From positions 1-20,980 of the IMG/VR virus record IMGVR_UViG_3300009703_000133: a stretch of 20,980 nucleotides of DNA; one strand, written 5' to 3'. Under the pieces are notes generated by a model that worked only from the letters and a program-made list of their open reading frames with translations, made no database searches and was not told where the DNA came from. Shown here one piece after another: positions 1 to 9,530 of the stretch (position 1 is the first letter of the stretch; every line of letters starts with the position of its first letter). Origin of the DNA: a virus. The position numbers and the translations under genes were made by a program.

Positions 1-372
1 ACTACTTGTAAACACATCCGCGCCAACGGAGAACAACTCGGCTTCTGTTGTTGAGTTGTTAGTTAGCTTAACGCTAGCATAATAACCTAAAGGTGAGCTT
101 AGGTTAGCTTTATTATCTTTTGAGAACAACATGAAGTAAGTGGCGCTATTACTATCCCAACCCAATAGCGTAGAATCTACTATAATTCTATCATTAAATG
201 TAGAGTCACTATCTTGTGTTGTTATTTCTAAGATAGTACCTATCTCTACTATATTATTAGCTCCGTTTGTAGTAAAACCACCATCACTACCTGTTGCCAC
301 GTAGTACGCTGTATCACCAACTTGGCAAGATACATTTATTGGGTTATTAAAGTTTATAGTTACTAATGGCAT
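1..372 (-). CDS. Hypothetical phage structural protein, C-terminus cut by window edge
   Basis: An open frame runs from an ATG at 372-370 to the left edge without a stop: 124 codons, incomplete at the C-terminus. The protein starts MPLVTINFNNPINVSCQVGD and continues with short beta-strand-like stretches rich in Thr, Asn, Ser and Asp (for example GTILEITTQDSDSTFNDRII, then VDSTLLGWDSNSATYFMLFS). There is no signal peptide or membrane segment. Its start overlaps the stop of the upstream 415-aa gene by one base (TAATG), so the two are probably translationally coupled. Position after the tail hub and two other structural genes suggests a tail or virion-surface component. The 'NF.NPIN.S.QVGD' opening is one I associate with marine phage structural proteins, but I cannot name a function. 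Confidence 0.85.
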   Translation of the reverse strand, partial: MPLVTINFNNPINVSCQVGDTAYYVATGSDGGFTTNGANNIVEIGTILEITTQDSDSTFNDRIIVDSTLLGWDSNSATYFMLFSKDNKANLSSPLGYYASVKLTNNSTTEAELFSVGADVFTSS

Positions 373-1619
373 TATGATGAAGTTAGTAGATTATCTATAT
401 ATAAAGGTAGCGTTACGTTGTCTGTAATTTTGCTTACTTCAACATATCCGTATATTTTAGCTATCTCTTGATTATTGGTTGGGTCACCTGAGGTTGTTGT
501 TATCGCAGCTTGTGCGTGTACTAATTCAACACCACTCATAGTTGATACTGCTGCGTCAGGATCTGGGCTTTTGCTTATCGTTAATGTTACTCCACTAGCT
601 ATCTCCTGCACAGGAGATACTGTTATACTTTTACTACCAATATTTGAAGATTTAATTTCAGCGTAATTAGCACCACCTATTCCGGTTATACCTGGGCCTC
701 TAACAACCATTCCGGGTAAACCATACTGTACTCCAGGCGCTTCTAACACTATATCAGTACTAGGAGATCCAATTGTAGAACCAGCCGTATTCACGCTAAA
801 TGAATTAACCGCACCACCTAAAGCGTAGTTTGGTAAATAACTCGCTGATGAAGTACTTATTACATCAAGGTTTTTATATGACAACCTCTTCACTGACACG
901 TTGTCTACCGTAAATACGCTGGCTGTCGCTGAAGTGTTATATATTAACAAATGACCAGTAGCATTAGCAGCGGTTATATCTTGCGTATAAGTCGTCTCTG
1001 TTGTTGTGATGTCAAAAGCAGAGGATAAAGTACCACCTAACCCCATCACCATTGACATAGTGCCAGTACCCGGCGTAGTTAAATCTAGATCCATACTAAC
1101 TCTATAAACTTGCCCCGCAACAAGAGATGTAGAAGAGCCATCTCCAACGTCCTCCTCGGGTAGTTGTGCTCCTTCTATTTCATTATCAGTTGTAGTAGTT
1201 ACTTGTAACTTCGCGCCGTCTCTACCTATAGAAACATCACTACCAGTATCATCAAGTGCAACCCAGTCACCAACACTACTGTTAAACGTTGAATTCTCAG
1301 CCGTGCCAGCCGCGCCAACAACAAGCTCAGAACCTAAAGTGCTGCCAGCTGGTATTACAAGCGTGAATGGTACAAATTTAGGAGATTTAGTATCAAACCT
1401 TAAAGTTTCTGATTGGTTGATAACGCAACTATTGCTTAGCGTTATTTTTTCTCTATTTACTTTAGTAACAGTAGTTAAGTGTGGTATACCACTCCCTTGC
1501 ATTGGGCTGGTGACGTACATACCTTCAAATATTCTATCGTTACGCTCTTCTAGTAATAGTCTAGTTGATCCCGCTACATTTGATTTAGGAGAACCATACG
1601 TTGTTATGTGTTTTTTCAT
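372..1619 (-). CDS. Probable tail fibre or virion-surface protein with jelly-roll carbohydrate-binding-like domain
   Basis: 415 aa. Residues about 93-246 look like a CBM4/9-type jelly roll. The domain opens with GSELV near residue 97, is followed by STFNSSVGDW, has the strand VAGQVYRVSMDLDL, and closes with VFTVDNVSVKRL (residues 235-246), the usual end of such phage domains. It is flanked by two copies of a beta motif: residues 33-75 (GMYVTSPMQGSGI then ITLS and LRF) and residues 303-349 (GMVVRGPGITGIG then ITVS and LTIS). Jelly-roll domains of this type commonly bind glycans or decorate virions, so a host-surface or tail role is plausible. The ATG at 1619-1617 lies five bases after the upstream stop. 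The C-terminal stop overlaps the next ATG. No catalytic motif was seen. Exact position in the virion is unknown. Confidence 0.85.
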   Translation of the reverse strand: MKKHITTYGSPKSNVAGSTRLLLEERNDRIFEGMYVTSPMQGSGIPHLTTVTKVNREKITLSNSCVINQSETLRFDTKSPKFVPFTLVIPAGSTLGSELVVGAAGTAENSTFNSSVGDWVALDDTGSDVSIGRDGAKLQVTTTTDNEIEGAQLPEEDVGDGSSTSLVAGQVYRVSMDLDLTTPGTGTMSMVMGLGGTLSSAFDITTTETTYTQDITAANATGHLLIYNTSATASVFTVDNVSVKRLSYKNLDVISTSSASYLPNYALGGAVNSFSVNTAGSTIGSPSTDIVLEAPGVQYGLPGMVVRGPGITGIGGANYAEIKSSNIGSKSITVSPVQEIASGVTLTISKSPDPDAAVSTMSGVELVHAQAAITTTSGDPTNNQEIAKIYGYVEVSKITDNVTLPLYIDNLLTSS

Positions 1620-1624
1620 TTTTC

Positions 1625-3082
1625 TTAGGCTTTTCTACTTATAACAGCGTCTCTTACTGAAGTTCCAGTACCACTTAAATCCCAATTAGCTTCCGTACCG
1701 GCTGTAGCTCTAATAGTTAAAGTGTTGTAACCAGTTTTTTCAAATGTTTTGTCACCTAGTTTTGTTGGTAGACCTTCCTTAATTTTCGTGTCTCCAAGTG
1801 GTGAAACATAAATATCATACATTTTCTTTTCAGTTACCTCTGGCAATATAAACCTATGATTGTTTCTACCGTTAGCACCGATCTGAAATATATTTCTATC
1901 TTGCGTTGTCGTTAATCGACCAACGCCATGGAAACTGTAAAACTTTACAGGTGTAAAATCTTTTAAACTCGTTCTTTCTGTTACACTAATTTCATATTGA
2001 GCATCTGGTGTTCCTCTAACAACAATATTTTGATATCCAGACGTTGGGCGTAGAGCAGACGGTACTTTAACACTTGTAATCATTTTCTCATCATAGCTGA
2101 CTCCTCCGGTTGGAGTTATTGTATCGAAGTCCCAGTTTATAGTGTGCCCTAACCAAGATAAATAATCATCAAGTAACCAACCCTCCCACATATCTGGCGG
2201 ATTATAAGATATGGTTAAAGTAAGAGCATAAGGAACTCCAGGTAAATCAAGTGGATTACCCTGTACGTCAGTTTGAGGGGCGTGCCATTCGCCAAGAACT
2301 GTAGAATAAGCATCAGAATAGAACTGCTGCGTAAAGTAGCCTTGGACACCGCTCACTGTATTGTATGTAAAATAGTGACTGTGAGGATTGAAATCTGGTG
2401 CTCCATCCCCACTTTCTACAACAGAAGGTAAAGGATCTAAAAGCTGTCCCGTATCGGGGTTTGTTCTAAAAGCAGCAATTTTTGTAATCTGATAATCCGC
2501 ATCAAGTTGGTAGTCGTTTATAGTACCCGCAAATCTATATTTATAAAAACCATCATCTTCAACATCACCTTCATTTACTAAAGTTCTAACCAACATCCCA
2601 TTGTTCATACTTGCTGGTTGTGGAACCCAAGAGTTATTCGACCACGGATAATAAAACTCGTGCGTCCACCTATTGCTGTATGGTATTGTCACGAAAAAAT
2701 TCACGGCTCTTGCTAATACTTGAGTAGTACCACCAGTAGCTTTTTCATCTATATCAATATGAAACGACGTATCCACATTAGGTGATGTTGTACCCATTTT
2801 AACGCGGGCTCTAACATTATTATTAATTTGACCAGCTGTACCTAAGTCCGTGAAAGTTACTGATGCAACACCAGAGTCTACGTTACCACCTGTCCATACA
2901 CCAGATCCTTCAGATGTTTCGCTTGCGGAACCGATTGTAAAGTTTGATGCCTGAATATATGTACCGCTATGTATACCAGTATCTGGGTCTACAGGACTTA
3001 TAATGATATCGTATATATCATCAACTAGATCTGTTCCACCTATTTCAGTTGCCGTAGCTGTAGTTGTATACCAAGTTCCCAT
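1625..3082 (-). CDS. Hypothetical phage tail-associated structural protein
   Basis: 485 aa, starting one base after the stop of the giant hub gene, so almost certainly co-transcribed and probably part of the same substructure. The N-terminal 100 residues are Thr/Gly/Ser-rich beta-like sequence. The middle (about 125-310) is rich in Tyr, Trp, Asp and Pro (EFYYPWSNNSWVPQP near residues 141-155), as in virion beta domains. The C-terminal third contains ISVTERTSLKDFTPVKFYSF and a YDIYVSPLGDTKIKEGLP segment, the latter of a style I have seen in other marine phage structural proteins. No membrane segment, coiled coil or enzyme motif is visible. I cannot give a precise function; tail or hub-associated protein is inferred from position and composition. 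Confidence 0.82.
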   Translation of the reverse strand: MGTWYTTTATATEIGGTDLVDDIYDIIISPVDPDTGIHSGTYIQASNFTIGSASETSEGSGVWTGGNVDSGVASVTFTDLGTAGQINNNVRARVKMGTTSPNVDTSFHIDIDEKATGGTTQVLARAVNFFVTIPYSNRWTHEFYYPWSNNSWVPQPASMNNGMLVRTLVNEGDVEDDGFYKYRFAGTINDYQLDADYQITKIAAFRTNPDTGQLLDPLPSVVESGDGAPDFNPHSHYFTYNTVSGVQGYFTQQFYSDAYSTVLGEWHAPQTDVQGNPLDLPGVPYALTLTISYNPPDMWEGWLLDDYLSWLGHTINWDFDTITPTGGVSYDEKMITSVKVPSALRPTSGYQNIVVRGTPDAQYEISVTERTSLKDFTPVKFYSFHGVGRLTTTQDRNIFQIGANGRNNHRFILPEVTEKKMYDIYVSPLGDTKIKEGLPTKLGDKTFEKTGYNTLTIRATAGTEANWDLSGTGTSVRDAVISRKA

Positions 3083-3083
3083 A

Positions 3084-6000
3084 TTAATCCCAATTTACAT
3101 CTCCAGCTGCATTAGCTGAATCGTTTTTAACAGTTATAGTTATATTACCTTTGTAAGCTGCACCACCAGCGTGAGTCATTGTAGCTTGTCCTAAACCTTG
3201 AACAGAAAACTCTTTTCCATTTAGATTATTCAGCGTTGTAGTTTCACCCGTTGGATAAGCAAACCACTTACCTTCTTTATCCTTAAACTCTAAGCTACCG
3301 CATGACTGTAGATTTGTGGTTAAATTTTCTACAGACCAACCTGCTGTACCAACGCTATCAGCGCCTGATCCACCTAAGTTAAAGTATTCACCATCAGTAA
3401 TAGTGGTGATACCTGCTTGAATCCCATCATTGGTAGTGACATCATTATTGTAATAACCATCAAACGTTTCTGTATCAAAGTTTGTTATTCTCGCTTGTGA
3501 ACCCTCGTAGTTTAAAGTGTTAAAACTTTTTATAAACTCAGGTTGATCATTAAATAACAACGTAATATCAGATGTATTTTGTGTTGCGTAGAAATTATTT
3601 CTCGTAGCATTGTGGTGGTGCTGCCAAATATGCCCATCAAAGAAAGTATAATATTCGTTATTTAAACTCACGCCGGTTTCTAAACCCTTGACTTCTGTCA
3701 AAGCTCCAGATACACTAACAGTAGAGCTAAACGTTTTAAAACTAGACCAACCTTTAGATCTCTCATTGTAGGATACTGTTGTTTGAGCAGTATAAGTATG
3801 TTGTTCGTGTTTATATTTAGTGCCTATTGATACGTTGTATTCATTTTTGCGCTCATCATACGTACCTATAGCAGAGTGCACATTACGAGCCATTAAATCC
3901 GAAAAATAATCCTTCATACCAGCTTCTGATATATCACGTATGCCCTCATTGTCATTCAAAGCTAAAACTTTACCTCTCATAACATCTGTAAAGAACATGT
4001 TTCTAGGTGTTACAGCTAAGGACTCTGGATTTGTAGATATACCGTAGTCACCTTGATACGCTACAGCGCTACCAATCACCGCTGTACTAGCAACAACTTG
4101 AGAACTACCATCAGCATTAAAGAGCATGTCTCTATTAGTATCTGCTCGAAGAACTTTATCTTCACAGAACATGATCACTCTAGTATCTCTTGCTTTTAAA
4201 GCCTGTATACTACCGTGAGATGGATTTATATCTTTAGTTATGTTTTCACCAGCGATAAATTGGTTAGTATTATTTACTCCAGCTTGAGAATTATATATAC
4301 CAGACCATATCATACCATACTTCCTACGCTCTTCTTTTACATCTGGATTATCCACAGACGCAGACACTTTAACACCATTATCTACTTCAGGCGCATTAAA
4401 GTCATCTCTTATTCTATCAGATTCTACGCCATTTCCAAAACACCAACAATTATTCCAACCAAGCTTATGCTCTTGGGTGTATAGCATATGATCTACGTTT
4501 TCTGTGCTAATATCTCCAGTTATTTTTATATCTATATTAACACCTCCAAGTGAGATGTTTGTTGTTGCGTTACTAAGATACACGTCCTCAGCCACAACGG
4601 CTGTGACACTGTTGTTATTAGGCGTGTTGAAGTGAATCACTTCGCCAGCGCTTAATACGGGATTGTTGGCGTCGTAGTTTGGTTGAAGACTACTGTAAAA
4701 AGCATTTACAATCTCAGGCCAATATAAATTACCGTTTAAAGTAATAGTTGTTTTGTCCCAACTTAGAACCTGTAACTTGTTATTATATACAACTTGCACT
4801 AACTGTGCGGCATCTAGAATATTAGTAGGTTCACCTGGTACAAAATAACTGTTTGCTTGAACAAGTTCAGATCCTAGAGGTATAAACTCCTCATTTGTCT
4901 TATCGTTAAGCACTAATGGTATTAGCGAACTTGCTTGATAGTATATATCTAGTTCAACAGATTCTTTAGGTTCAGTTTCCCATATACCTGGATTGTCAGA
5001 ATAATGTGAACTTTGGTCACTAAAAGGATGTACTATTTCTATAATATCTTGATCAGTACCATCATGTTTTAAAGCTCTTCTAAAGTCAGGATCATCAACA
5101 CCAAGTAAGAAACCGTTTTCATTGACATTAACTAGAGCGGTTGGGTGTGTACCGTGTATGGGGTTATATCCACGCGCGGTGTCACCTATTTTAGGTTCAA
5201 CTAATATTGTCCAGCGTTGTCTTCTATTCCAATTAGCCCACTGTTCCATGTGACCAGTGTCACTACTTGGATCACTTCCTACGTTAAATATACCATAAAC
5301 ACCATCTTGTATACTAGTTGGTTGATCATAATATGATGGGTTATCAAACCCATCAAAAACATATGGATATACGTAAGGAAATACTGTATACACCTGCTTG
5401 TCTGGATCGTTTTGAAATCTAAATCTAGTGCCAGGCTCAACGAGTTTTTCCATAAACTCTTTAACCATATTGTTATAAGTGTCTTCTGGATGTTGAGATA
5501 TATTCACAGAAACTGTTTCTTCCGTGTTTGGTACTCCATCATCTCCTTCCGTGTCATCCCAGCCACACCAAGATAAATCTATAGCTGAGAAGTTATTAAC
5601 ATCCCATATTCCTCTACTTGGTGTGCCGTGAAACGCCGGGTTTAAATCACTATACCCGTTTTCGGCTGCACCGCCTTGCCCACCCGCTGCGTAGTAATCT
5701 CCAAATGCACCTCCAGTGCCAGAAACCGTTGGTGCTGGTATATTAGTAATTCCACCTTCAGAATCCGGATCAACACTTGATCCTCCAGGTACTCCATATA
5801 ACGCTAGTGCTCCACGGTTATGAACGTTGTGTGGACCAACGTCTCCTGGTGTAATTTGACCCTGCGCATCACTTGGATAGTTATCACCACCAACGCCATA
5901 GATATCGCCTGTATTTGGCGCACCGGCCATGAAATCCCAAAATCCATTATCGGAGTTTTGGTCGGGAGAACCCGCGTTATTTATTGATCCGTCTGGATTA

Positions 6001-9000
6001 ATTTGACCTGGATTTATTACTGTAGAATTAAATCTAGTACCTGGTCTAGAGTATTGCCAACCGCCGTAACTATACGCAGTGCAAGCATCGATAAAAATCC
6101 TAGGTTTTGAATTAATATATTTCCAGTACCTTACAGCAGCAGCGTGATATGTATCCTCTTGATAAGGACCGTTTGTATAACCATTTCCGTTTATACTACG
6201 TATATTGCATATTTCCATTAAGCTGGCCATGTTTGTAATACCAGCGTAGGTATCGTCACCGTTTAACCAAACATATGGAGCTCCCTGTATGTGCGTTCCA
6301 TCACCGACATATCCATTTAAAGTAGACCAACTATGCTCAGTTGGATGGGCTTCATTCCTGTAATAATTCCATGTTGTCCAGAATTCTAATCCGTTATAAG
6401 GGTAGTTTGTCCACCAATTATCCATAAACCCATCCTGATTCAGATCGTAAGTAGAGTTAGTACCGTCGTTTAAATTAGCATATATAGGGCGCTCAGGAAC
6501 AACCCCGGCATATCCGAAGGCTCCAGTTTGAGCGGTACCCATTCTAGTACCAGCGTTAATATAACCATTATTGTTAATATAAGACACCGGCATAGCCATA
6601 TCGACAAACCATTCACTTGGAGATGATTCAACAACGTACTTTTGCAGCACGTCATCTTTAAATACTTTAACAAAAAATCTACCATCAAATTCTGGTAAAT
6701 TCATAACTCTAAACTCTACAAGTTCTATTTGAATTCCAGAGACACCAGAAGCTCCTTCGTATGTACCGTCTGTAGACGTGAATCCTATATCATCACCAAA
6801 TAATTCCTCTACAGTAATAGCAAATGGGTCGGTGTTCGCACCCTCATCTTCATCACCGGTGTAATTAATGTTTGTTACTAAGTAAAAATTTGATTTATTT
6901 TCCGATCCTTGCCATATTCTAAGATATAAGTTCTTTGGTCGTTCTCTATGAAGTTGATCTCCAAACGTAGATATAAATTCCTCACGTTCAACAAAAACAC
7001 GCCTGAAATTAGGTAAAGGGTATCCTATACCAGATTCACCTATAGCATCACCTTGGATAGTTCTACCGATACTTAATCTTCGCGTTTTGATAAAATCTGG
7101 TGCTTCGCTTTCTATAGCCAGTATTTTATACTTAGCTTTATCTTGAACAACGTGGTTTGATCCATGCGCTTTTTTAAGTATCAAGAAATCCTCTTCATCT
7201 ATTTTATTTCTTTCTGAAGAAGGAAATGATAACCACACATTGCCATCAGATGCGTTATACCAACGGTCTTGAGATAACGTGTGATAAGGGACAGATGTTT
7301 CTTTAACGTAAAAAGAATAATACTCAGCCCAACTAGGTGGCTCAATAGAATTACTTAAACTAACTTTTAACCTGTTTCTGGTTGCGGTGTTTAATTTGTT
7401 GACACGTATTGTAGCAGCTTCGTTAGTTAACACGGGTGTTTCTCTTCCATAACGATCGCTAAATACAACTCCTACGTGGTAATCGCGTAAAGACTTTACA
7501 GATGGAGCTGGATAACCGTTGTAATCTAAAGTATACTCATCAGCATTTAACGACAGTTCAATTTTTGGAGGGTTTTTTACATCAAAATTATGAACGTAGT
7601 TTCCGTACACTATTCTATTAGCCGTTACCTCTTGAGCTAAAGCTTTTTTGGGAACGTTGTCCCACGGTCGTATAAGTTGATTACTAGGGACAACAGCGTG
7701 TATCATATCTGTCGTCAACTCAAACTCACCTCTTTTGTTTGGAAATTCACTAGTTGCGTTATTCGGCCATAATGGATGTGGATCTGTAGGTCTTATAGTT
7801 TCAACAACATATACGGTAGGATTGTTAGTCTCCTTATACAGTATGTCTATCTCTACTACATCGCTAGGTCGAGACTTGTATTGCGGGTAATAACCTTTCA
7901 GTTTTAATCCACGTAATCCATTTACCATTCCTAAGTTATGACCTTTTTTAGGTTGATAATCAAAGTGACCTGGTAAAAAAGCCATTTCAGACCAAGGTGC
8001 GAACGTAGAGTACTCTCCATCTTCGTACTTATATCTATAAGAAAATCTAGGGAATTTTAAATTAAATAGCGGATCTTTATCTTCTAATCTTACTATCCAT
8101 TCTTGGTTAGCAATAGTTACGTCCTCCTTAATAGAAAGTACTTCTACTATAAATGGGCCTGCGTGTATGACGTTAGGATTTAAATCATCACCTGGAGAAT
8201 ATACCACTTTAGCTCTAACATCTCTTATGCCTACATCAAAGTCTTCATCTAAGTCCACTAAATTATTGTCCATTGAAGCGAACAGCAGTACGTCGTTCAT
8301 ACGAAAATCAACGGGTTGATTAAAAGTTACTGTTACTTCTGTACCAGGTTGCACAATAAGTTCGTTCGCGGCTTCGTTCCAGCCGCTTTCCATTAACGTT
8401 GTAAAGTTTGCCGATGTAGTTCCTGAAACTGGGTTTTGTACACCTGTTATGGTGTTAACCCTATCAGTTGATGTTCTATACATGTCAAGCTCTAGCGCGG
8501 TTACAGGAGCTCTTTTAATAACAGTTACATCTGGCAAGCCGACGTATATAGGTCGATTTGTATCTGGGTTTGTTACTATTTCATACGAGTTTATCTGTTG
8601 TCCTGCTACAACTAAGCGTGTGTGGAAGTATGGGTTTTCTCCTTGGAACGTAGATTTTATAGCGTTAGTCGCTGCTGTGTAACCACCGTTTCCCGCGTTG
8701 TGTAAAGGTTCTGTACCACCTGTGCCTAATATAGATCTTGTTACGTTTATTTTCTTAGGTTCATGTTTATTATCTGTCCAGAATATAAAATCGTCAAGAA
8801 TATTTATTGCAGGAATTAATTCTCCTTTTTCAAACTCAAGAACTCTTTCACCAGTAAATTGTATAGCATTAGTTGCTGTTAAGTTAATAGGCGTATCAAC
8901 AGTGATCTTCCATTTATTAACACCTCCAGTTGTATCATAAGATATATCGGTTACTAAAACGTCGTTCGTAGAATTTATATCACCACTTGTCACGGTCATA

Positions 9001-9530
9001 CCAATTCTAATACCCGTTTGGTTGGTTGCCACTCCAGCGCCTAGCTCTACGTGGAAAGTATTAGATGAGCTTACAGTAGACGTTACAGTAGAAGATACGT
9101 AGAAAATATCTACAAAAACATATCTAAGTCTTTCTGTTACCGTATTGTATTCTAAGATATAATCTTTCCACGTATTTAAGGCAACGCCTGTTACAGTGTT
9201 AATAGACGATTGTACGAAGAAGTATACAACATCTTTTGTTTTATCCTCTATAGCTCCAACGCACGTCGCTGAATTTGTATGAAGAGATCCACTTGATACG
9301 AGATCGTAGTAACTAGTTAATGTTGAACCTAATGTGTAGTTATCAAACGTAGCCATAGTCTCACGCTTAGTATTACCTAAAATAGTTTGAACTACTCCAG
9401 CGTTTGAACTTTCTGATGTAGCTATTTCTACATTTGTTGCGTCTCTATATTCTCCGTTGGGTACAAGTCTCTCATCAAGATCCTTGTTCATTCTACCAGC
9501 GGAGAAAGTATGTTTCAACTCTGTACTCAT
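3084..9530 (-). CDS. Giant tail hub / tail stabilisation protein (P22 gp10-like, inferred)
   Basis: 2148 aa, about 31% of the window. The N-terminus has FSAGRMNKDLDERLVPNGEY then RDATN, a signature I recognise from stabilisation/hub proteins of crAss-like and marine podovirus-like phages. Further landmarks are a GMTVTSG beta motif (about 175-230), FSYRYKYEDGEYSTFAPWSE (about 490-510), CWCFGNGVESDRIRDDFN (about 1694-1711), YNERSKGWSSF (near 1920) and DGHIWQHHHN with RNNFY (near 1965). Repeated beta-blade-like strands towards the C-terminus suggest a propeller hub. Residues about 990-1340 are a Gly/Asn/Tyr/Pro-rich block that looks inserted, including a DxNxDGxxD calcium-loop-like motif at 1029-1037. 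The gene lies two or three bases from both neighbours, after the connector genes, as expected for a protein joining head adaptor to tail. No signal peptide or protease motif was seen. Family assignment is from remembered motifs, not a search. Confidence 0.85.
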   Translation of the reverse strand: MSTELKHTFSAGRMNKDLDERLVPNGEYRDATNVEIATSESSNAGVVQTILGNTKRETMATFDNYTLGSTLTSYYDLVSSGSLHTNSATCVGAIEDKTKDVVYFFVQSSINTVTGVALNTWKDYILEYNTVTERLRYVFVDIFYVSSTVTSTVSSSNTFHVELGAGVATNQTGIRIGMTVTSGDINSTNDVLVTDISYDTTGGVNKWKITVDTPINLTATNAIQFTGERVLEFEKGELIPAINILDDFIFWTDNKHEPKKINVTRSILGTGGTEPLHNAGNGGYTAATNAIKSTFQGENPYFHTRLVVAGQQINSYEIVTNPDTNRPIYVGLPDVTVIKRAPVTALELDMYRTSTDRVNTITGVQNPVSGTTSANFTTLMESGWNEAANELIVQPGTEVTVTFNQPVDFRMNDVLLFASMDNNLVDLDEDFDVGIRDVRAKVVYSPGDDLNPNVIHAGPFIVEVLSIKEDVTIANQEWIVRLEDKDPLFNLKFPRFSYRYKYEDGEYSTFAPWSEMAFLPGHFDYQPKKGHNLGMVNGLRGLKLKGYYPQYKSRPSDVVEIDILYKETNNPTVYVVETIRPTDPHPLWPNNATSEFPNKRGEFELTTDMIHAVVPSNQLIRPWDNVPKKALAQEVTANRIVYGNYVHNFDVKNPPKIELSLNADEYTLDYNGYPAPSVKSLRDYHVGVVFSDRYGRETPVLTNEAATIRVNKLNTATRNRLKVSLSNSIEPPSWAEYYSFYVKETSVPYHTLSQDRWYNASDGNVWLSFPSSERNKIDEEDFLILKKAHGSNHVVQDKAKYKILAIESEAPDFIKTRRLSIGRTIQGDAIGESGIGYPLPNFRRVFVEREEFISTFGDQLHRERPKNLYLRIWQGSENKSNFYLVTNINYTGDEDEGANTDPFAITVEELFGDDIGFTSTDGTYEGASGVSGIQIELVEFRVMNLPEFDGRFFVKVFKDDVLQKYVVESSPSEWFVDMAMPVSYINNNGYINAGTRMGTAQTGAFGYAGVVPERPIYANLNDGTNSTYDLNQDGFMDNWWTNYPYNGLEFWTTWNYYRNEAHPTEHSWSTLNGYVGDGTHIQGAPYVWLNGDDTYAGITNMASLMEICNIRSINGNGYTNGPYQEDTYHAAAVRYWKYINSKPRIFIDACTAYSYGGWQYSRPGTRFNSTVINPGQINPDGSINNAGSPDQNSDNGFWDFMAGAPNTGDIYGVGGDNYPSDAQGQITPGDVGPHNVHNRGALALYGVPGGSSVDPDSEGGITNIPAPTVSGTGGAFGDYYAAGGQGGAAENGYSDLNPAFHGTPSRGIWDVNNFSAIDLSWCGWDDTEGDDGVPNTEETVSVNISQHPEDTYNNMVKEFMEKLVEPGTRFRFQNDPDKQVYTVFPYVYPYVFDGFDNPSYYDQPTSIQDGVYGIFNVGSDPSSDTGHMEQWANWNRRQRWTILVEPKIGDTARGYNPIHGTHPTALVNVNENGFLLGVDDPDFRRALKHDGTDQDIIEIVHPFSDQSSHYSDNPGIWETEPKESVELDIYYQASSLIPLVLNDKTNEEFIPLGSELVQANSYFVPGEPTNILDAAQLVQVVYNNKLQVLSWDKTTITLNGNLYWPEIVNAFYSSLQPNYDANNPVLSAGEVIHFNTPNNNSVTAVVAEDVYLSNATTNISLGGVNIDIKITGDISTENVDHMLYTQEHKLGWNNCWCFGNGVESDRIRDDFNAPEVDNGVKVSASVDNPDVKEERRKYGMIWSGIYNSQAGVNNTNQFIAGENITKDINPSHGSIQALKARDTRVIMFCEDKVLRADTNRDMLFNADGSSQVVASTAVIGSAVAYQGDYGISTNPESLAVTPRNMFFTDVMRGKVLALNDNEGIRDISEAGMKDYFSDLMARNVHSAIGTYDERKNEYNVSIGTKYKHEQHTYTAQTTVSYNERSKGWSSFKTFSSTVSVSGALTEVKGLETGVSLNNEYYTFFDGHIWQHHHNATRNNFYATQNTSDITLLFNDQPEFIKSFNTLNYEGSQARITNFDTETFDGYYNNDVTTNDGIQAGITTITDGEYFNLGGSGADSVGTAGWSVENLTTNLQSCGSLEFKDKEGKWFAYPTGETTTLNNLNGKEFSVQGLGQATMTHAGGAAYKGNITITVKNDSANAAGDVNWD

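Follow-up and report, generated by a model that had tools for sequence, protein, structure and literature searches.

A stretch of viral DNA of 20,980 nucleotides (IMG/VR virus record IMGVR_UViG_3300009703_000133, positions 1 to 20,980; the window) encodes on its minus strand a protein of 2148 residues that, judged by its sequence matches, is a crassvirus-type muzzle, the gatekeeper of the tail tip. Residues 990-1340 of this protein (window 5511-6563) form a block whose counterparts in relatives vary in length and composition and on average diverge faster than the preceding part of the protein. We interpret the block as fast-changing surface loops of the crass domain at the tail tip of a crassvirus relative that probably infects Flavobacteriia, with contact to the host surface as their most likely role, and assign this reading a probability of roughly 0.62.

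Identity of the protein

The open reading frame (ORF) at 3084-9530 matches the Pfam family PF25729 (crAss_MUZ_C; E 5.3e-7, 30.4 bits against a curated cut-off of 27) and phrog_14478, annotated as 'virion structural protein' (E 5.6e-114). The PF25729 match recurs at E 0.1 or better in 21 of the 22 members of our family alignment A1, which consists of 22 chosen sequences. The main muzzle model, PF25731, does not match the window protein itself and is found at E 0.1 or better in 14 of 22 relatives (best 7.9e-16); its best stretch is N-terminal in the two proteins whose coordinates were viewed. When the 22-member window family was compared by HH with an eight-member alignment of gp44 from phicrAss001, window residues 1765-2098 were matched with E 2.7e-13, and a weak match of residues 673-699 to about 365-390 of gp44 (E 0.042, probability 1.3%) is colinear. 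From the Pfam, PHROG and HH matches, we assign the protein to the muzzle and not, as in the first-pass annotation, to a hub. In PMC10172136 the term hub denotes the fibre-docking proteins and the muzzle is the tail-tip gatekeeper of phicrAss001, with which the review PMC10136315 agrees.

3084..9530, minus strand: predicted muzzle (tail-tip) protein, 2148 residues (PF25729, phrog_14478, HH match to the gp44 family)
3255..3605, minus strand: predicted crassvirus muzzle C-terminal domain, residues 1976-2092 (PF25729; 21 of 22 A1 members)

For two homologues, phi40:1 gp97 and phi18:3 gp114, the annotation as virion proteins derives from tandem mass spectrometry. The window muzzle gene is directly preceded by a structural gene (phrog_13977, 'virion structural protein'), similar to phicrAss001, where the gene before the muzzle encodes the tail tubular protein gp43. 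All but one of the 87 similar phage records are phages of Flavobacterium, Cellulophaga, Tenacibaculum or Maribacter, and the three matches in the genome collection are two metagenome-assembled genomes of Flavobacteriaceae or Flavobacteriales and one 'bacterium TMED88'. On the strength of these phages and assembled genomes, a host in Flavobacteriia is likely.

Two long loops on a conserved frame

Relatives were taken from two sets, the best 80 of 304 loci by similarity to the window (set 1) and the best 78 of 156 (set 2), with several contigs in both. Besides A1, we used A2 (63 distinct fragments with both anchors), A3 (an eight-member alignment of the block) and A4 (the top 36 of 110 non-redundant fragments). 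The anatomy described here comes from 64 fragments covering residues 488-1538, the window protein and 63 distinct relatives; alignment inside the loops is unreliable, and lengths between anchors are safer.

The whole slot between anchors 986 and 1354 has 367 residues in the window protein, the longest of the 64, against 68-341 in the 63 relatives. Loop 1, between anchors 986 and 1132, counts 145 residues here and 4-215 in the relatives (median 58), and loop 2, between anchors 1156 and 1305, counts 148 residues, again the longest, compared to 7-135 (median 31). A third variable loop between anchors 1322 and 1354 has 31 residues here and 0-82 in relatives. Between the loops and behind them the protein has conserved elements: W1136 is invariant in 64 of 64 rows, F1146 and D1148 are kept in at least 90% (A2 and the window), residues 1307-1320 follow a GI...IxIS pattern, and residues 1354-1384 are of near-constant length (29 here, 26-37 in relatives). 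Because this frame (about 1131-1155 and 1304-1322) crosses the block, the alignment argues for two long loops, with a third, short variable one, and not for one insertion. The first-pass annotation had described an insertion of about 350 residues; the region is real and, as the alignment with relatives reveals, unequally present, but a single insertion is not supported, as the frame runs through its middle.

6654..6695, minus strand: frame strand PEFDGRFFVKVFKD, residues 946-959 (64 of 64 rows, mean column identity 0.61-0.83; pLDDT about 89-93)
6141..6572, minus strand: hypervariable loop 1, residues 987-1130 (length range; pLDDT below 50 over most of it in model 1)
6066..6140, minus strand: frame helix and strand (W1136 ... 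F1146 I D1148), residues 1131-1155 (conservation; pLDDT 75-89)
5622..6062, minus strand: hypervariable loop 2, residues 1157-1303 (length range; pLDDT mostly below 50 in both models)
5565..5621, minus strand: frame strands TPSRGIW...AIDLSW, residues 1304-1322 (on average about 52-64 of 64 rows; pLDDT 77-91)
5472..5564, minus strand: variable loop 3, residues 1323-1353 (anchor-to-anchor lengths)
5379..5471, minus strand: frame helix and strand ...PGTRFRFQNDPDKQVYTV, residues 1354-1384 (near-constant length; helix 1351-1363, strand 1369-1372)

Here pLDDT is the predicted local distance difference test of the AlphaFold2 models described below.

The muzzles of isolated phages illustrate the range. 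Cellulophaga phage phi38:1 gp97 (Pervagoviridae) and the Flavobacterium elemo phages share with the window two short genes before the muzzle and blocks of 27-36% identity that flank the slot on both sides, whereas their muzzles have only 1324 and 1470-1493 residues. Between the matches at q833 and q1694, elemoF has about 204 residues where the window protein has about 860; phi38:1 has about 365 between q815 and q1694 (about 878 in the window protein), MW202828 about 249 between q814 and q1676, and phi13:2 has 106 between q961 and q1690. In some isolates, among them elemoE, elemoF and phi13:2, hardly any of the loops is left.

The muzzle family varies in length at further sites (window residues 141-228, 1384-1495, 1556-1680, 1902-1918 and the C-terminus), and the muzzle ORFs of relatives reach 3368 residues. 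Two relatives carry the muzzle as two ORFs, L085 (Maribacter phage Panino; 8519-9481 and 9592-12432) and L054 (7992-12803 and 12858-16112), with junctions near window residues 1778-1823 and 1914; the gene may be split, it may contain an insert resembling an intron, or the sequence may be in error.

Composition of the block

Within residues 990-1340, Lys makes up 0.6% (4.3% in the rest of the protein), Glu 3.1% (6.2%), Gly 14.8% (7.1%), Tyr 7.1% (4.7%) and Trp 3.4% (1.5%). Among all 351-residue segments of the protein, the five richest in Gly, Asn, Tyr, Trp and Pro (GNYWP) start at 983-987 (149-150 such residues; median 97) and the four lowest in Lys plus Glu at 974-977 (10; median 34), so that residues about 985-1335 are the most GNYWP-rich and nearly the most Lys/Glu-poor segment. 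By these counts the limits of about 990-1340 that had been proposed for a compositional block are good, with the reservation that Asn is raised only slightly (10.0 vs 8.5%).

The same bias is found in the relatives. Their slots contain less Lys plus Glu than the rest of the protein in 63 of 63 cases (means 7.2 vs 14.5%) and more GNYWP in 62 of 63 (means 34.6 vs 25.3%), and the window slot lies near the extreme, with GNYWP equally high in two and Lys plus Glu equally low in five of the 63. Since relatives share this composition while their slot sequences are unlike, it marks a place in the protein and not a foreign origin.

A calcium-loop-like motif

The first-pass annotation had also pointed to a motif within the block that resembles a calcium-binding loop.

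6411..6446, minus strand: DLNQDGFMDNWW, calcium-loop-like motif, residues 1029-1040 (pLDDT 35-39 in model 1, 34-35 in model 2)

DLNQDGFMD at residue 1029 is the sole match to a loose calcium-loop pattern in the window protein. Shuffling produced such a match 111 times in 5000 for the block and 384 times in 5000 for the whole protein; the match is uncommon, yet it is weak, after-the-fact evidence. The loops of EF-hands, dockerins and TSP3 repeats have acids or Asn at positions 1, 3, 5 and 9 and an acid at position 12. In the window motif positions 1, 3, 5, 6 and 9 fit, but position 12 is Trp. None of the 57 distinct slots of relatives contains the pattern (1.25 expected by shuffling), and the eight matches in these relatives' proteins all lie outside the slot. 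The 63 set-2 fragments (54 distinct, some from set-1 contigs) yield one loose match, the frame stretch DISWSGMGE in L123, and the five relatives that align across the whole slot (L091-L094 and L096) have no counterpart at the motif position. With the HMMER filters on, no Pfam family matched the block or residues 911-1677 at E 10, and no PDB sequence matched the block at E 10. We rejected the calcium site because the motif lacks counterparts in relatives, lies in a low-confidence segment and has Trp at position 12. DLNQDGFMDNWW is probably not a metal site, and any calcium binding by DLNQDGFMD would most likely be a coincidence, although a calcium site private to the window protein retains some probability.

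Stretches of the form DxDxDG that resemble TSP3 calcium repeats (in L045, for example, DTDGDGVID and DADGDGVCD) occur in C-terminal muzzle extensions of L045, L062 and L066. These extensions are C-terminal to the part that aligns with the window protein (to residue about 2115); one such stretch is located before the slot, at residue 712 of L066.

Divergence and possible recombination

In pairs of relatives with more than 60% identity over residues 488-935, the slot is less identical than that region in 33 of 34 pairs and equal in one, although the pairs share members and are not independent. Pooled over 20 close pairs, residues 488-960 show 4.54% amino acid differences, compared with 11.65% for the slot, 8.69% for the next variable region and 7.20% for the C-terminal part; the corresponding ratios of nonsynonymous to synonymous divergence (pN/pS) are 0.16, 0.29, 0.27 and 0.20. 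The slot was measurable in 18 of the 20 pairs, and for L153/L158, L031/L058 and L012/L014 the right anchor defaulted to about residue 1500, which makes their 'slot' take in the variable region that follows. Taken singly, 13 of the 18 pairs show more differences in the slot than in residues 488-960. On these counts the slot is fast on average, with no visible net positive selection. Synonymous divergence (pS) is also higher in the slot (0.25 vs 0.15 in residues 488-960), which fits the import of tracts.

One pair, L051/L059, illustrates what such an import may look like. A 113-nt tract that begins at the FW codons and ends shortly after FID carries 28 substitutions between the two, some of them synonymous, and a length change of 30 bases, whereas outside the tract their muzzle genes have five differences in the first 2.4 kb and 21 in the last 1.7 kb. 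This pattern is suggestive of recombination. Two patterns scanned over the viral contigs for a donor of the tract matched only the L051 and L059 contigs themselves. The near-identical pairs L051/L059 and L031/L058 also turn strongly different a few kb downstream of the muzzle start (L051 from about 16800, L031 from about 18900), perhaps in tail fibre genes.

A diversity-generating retroelement is unlikely to target the block: no repeat of 24 nt or more involving it is present within the 21-kb window, as a template would be, and the differences between L051 and L059 are not limited to adenines. We also rejected the block as a mobile or shared module. Six block peptides matched no DNA in the viral contigs; A3 retrieved 156 relatives, and the 63 ORFs with both anchors in the best 78 loci show muzzle homology either along the slot or in both of its flanks.

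Predicted structure and position

We predicted the structure of the region with AlphaFold2, for residues 488-1538 with 64 sequences (model 1; mean pLDDT 65.6, predicted template modelling score 0.47) and for residues 644-1535 with 37 nearer sequences (model 2; 66.6 and 0.55). Model 1 places with confidence a helix at 1127-1140, strands at 1145-1148, 1308-1311 and 1314-1321, and a helix at 1351-1363, with 989-1125 and 1155-1302 mostly below pLDDT 50. Model 2 raises 1054-1123 up to about 53-74, and the motif segment (1019-1055) and loop 2 (1157-1301) still lie below 50. Fold prediction had been named as a check on the block; it emerges as a separate domain in neither of the two models, and the loops may still have a fold other than the modelled one.

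VIA aligned model 1 to the phicrAss001 muzzle (7qol_P) with Z 6.8 and a root-mean-square deviation of 5.0 Å over 215 residues, model 160-1051 on chain 317-929. With the domain limits given in PMC10172136, these chain residues take in most of IG2 and the E-F crass insertion (453-904). In BFVD, model 2 best matches a protein of virus NIOZ-UU157 named 'Crassvirus muzzle protein C-terminal domain-containing protein'; E is 6.7e-23 across 876 columns, with TM scores of only 0.30/0.26. The comparison with phicrAss001 gp44 (PDB 7qok, 7qol; PMC10172136) remains a partial one: the C-terminal region is homologous and the fold of model 1 partly alignable over IG2 and the crass domain, but gp44 has 1371 residues and its crass-domain sequence is not convincingly similar by profile. 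The block likely sits in the crass domain, and we infer its position at the tip from colinearity with gp44 and from the gp44 structure.

Proposed role of the loops and alternative explanations

In the reading that we prefer, a conserved crass-domain frame would carry two long surface loops at the distal tail tip. Both loops change fast in length and in sequence but keep to a loose compositional limit of few Lys and Glu and many Gly and aromatic residues. The loops would shape the tip, the tip would dock on the outer membrane or a surface glycan, and docking would cause the muzzle to open. For phicrAss001, PMC10172136 describes a crass domain with exposed loops at the tail tip; this domain is said to touch the cell surface, in all likelihood, and in this way to trigger the opening. 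The suggestion that the block reaches the cell surface is plausible on the same ground. Insertions into the crass and IG2 regions are published as the source of muzzle length variation in crassviruses (PMC10172136), and the window block would fit as an extreme example of them.

Several observations weigh against this reading. The slot pN/pS of 0.29 is below 1 and gives no direct sign of positive selection in the pooled close pairs. The slot differs less than residues 488-960 in four of the 18 pairs (L134/L136, L134/L137, L152/L165, L151/L157), with neither region differing in L003/L006, and the 150-nt window with most differences falls in the slot in just two of 14 close pairs, although at least one of the top four does so in eight. 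The low pLDDT of the loops may reflect a shallow alignment and not real flexibility. Unrelated small barrels share the VIA score of 6.8, and model 2 aligned elsewhere on gp44 (7qok_A chain 162-264, Z 5.4). Foldseek searches of the PDB with the two models gave nothing at E 0.001 or better, and the family profile matched no PDB chain at E 1 or better. Phages phi38:1 and Calle_1, which have different Cellulophaga hosts, possess slots of the same length (102) with near-identical printed stretches. To our knowledge, no receptor is known, and we know of few for crassvirus-type phages in general.

Three other explanations address the same data. If the tail-tip protein had acquired a domain that folds on its own, with calcium stabilising a loop, this would account for the outlying composition, the DxNxDG motif and a slot that is the longest of 64. 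The first-pass annotation had raised this origin, which we now consider very improbable: frame elements lie inside the block in nearly all aligned relatives, the composition is shared, the motif has no counterpart in relatives and deviates at position 12, the Pfam and PDB sequence searches found nothing, and no confident or separate fold emerges. That the loops are instead weakly constrained, exposed filler, tolerant in length, with a composition set by solubility and assembly and no receptor role, is unlikely but deserves serious consideration; the pN/pS is raised though below 1, the loops can be nearly absent, and other muzzle sites vary as much. Nevertheless, drift alone does not readily explain growth to 145 and 148 residues, and the composition persists in 62-63 of 63 relatives although the sequence does not.

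The loops could also act inside the muzzle, as inter-subunit or gate elements for assembly or cargo retention, away from the surface. In favour of such a function, the muzzle forms a gated hexamer, and interfaces between its subunits take part in the opening (PMC10172136). However, these loops vary between 4 and 215 residues. Elements at interfaces tend to keep their length, and we regard a gate function as improbable. A more specific version of the host-contact reading is possible but tentative: the W...FID...IxIS frame may present two or three loops in the manner of complementarity-determining regions, with short-tract exchange and expansion, so that host range would be set at irreversible binding, apart from the tail fibres. 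The difference between L051 and L059 would then be a recent swap.

The length variation of the crassvirus muzzle region is already in print (PMC10172136). Nothing more detailed about the loops came up in the literature available (parts of PMC10172136, PMC12386605, PMC10136315 and PMC11054128 included), which contains few subscription journals and no preprints. New here are the two-loop anatomy, the faster divergence in most close pairs, and the short-tract difference of L051/L059 at the W...FID anchors. The W...FID...IxIS frame offers a simple handle to find and compare tail-tip loops among relatives, and L051/L059 are a natural pair whose muzzle genes differ mainly at the loop anchors. Should the loops determine host contact, adsorption could be predicted with the help of muzzle sequence; otherwise the anatomy is a plain description of a length-variable region already known in outline.

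Related systems and neighbouring genes

The muzzle has been likened to the nozzle of T7, gp12. The ring-joining domain and the beta-propeller of the muzzle resemble those of the nozzle, whereas the other three muzzle domains are distinct (PMC10172136). The window's relatives whose records were opened, among the phage matches listed (muzzle best 40 of 87, terminase 12 of 87, capsid 12 of 85), belong to Pervagoviridae, Pachyviridae or Elemovirus or are unclassified, and none to Crassvirales.

Two genes follow downstream of the muzzle gene:

1625..3082, minus strand: protein of 485 residues, may be a tail protein
372..1619, minus strand: protein of 415 residues, may be a tail protein

The suggested function is judged by position. 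Neither protein has a Pfam match at E 1, and a PHROG search gave no match for the 485-residue protein and one of only E 0.39 for the 415-residue protein. In L085 (Maribacter phage Panino), a gene annotated as co-chaperonin GroES (23828-24001) adjoins the terminase gene.

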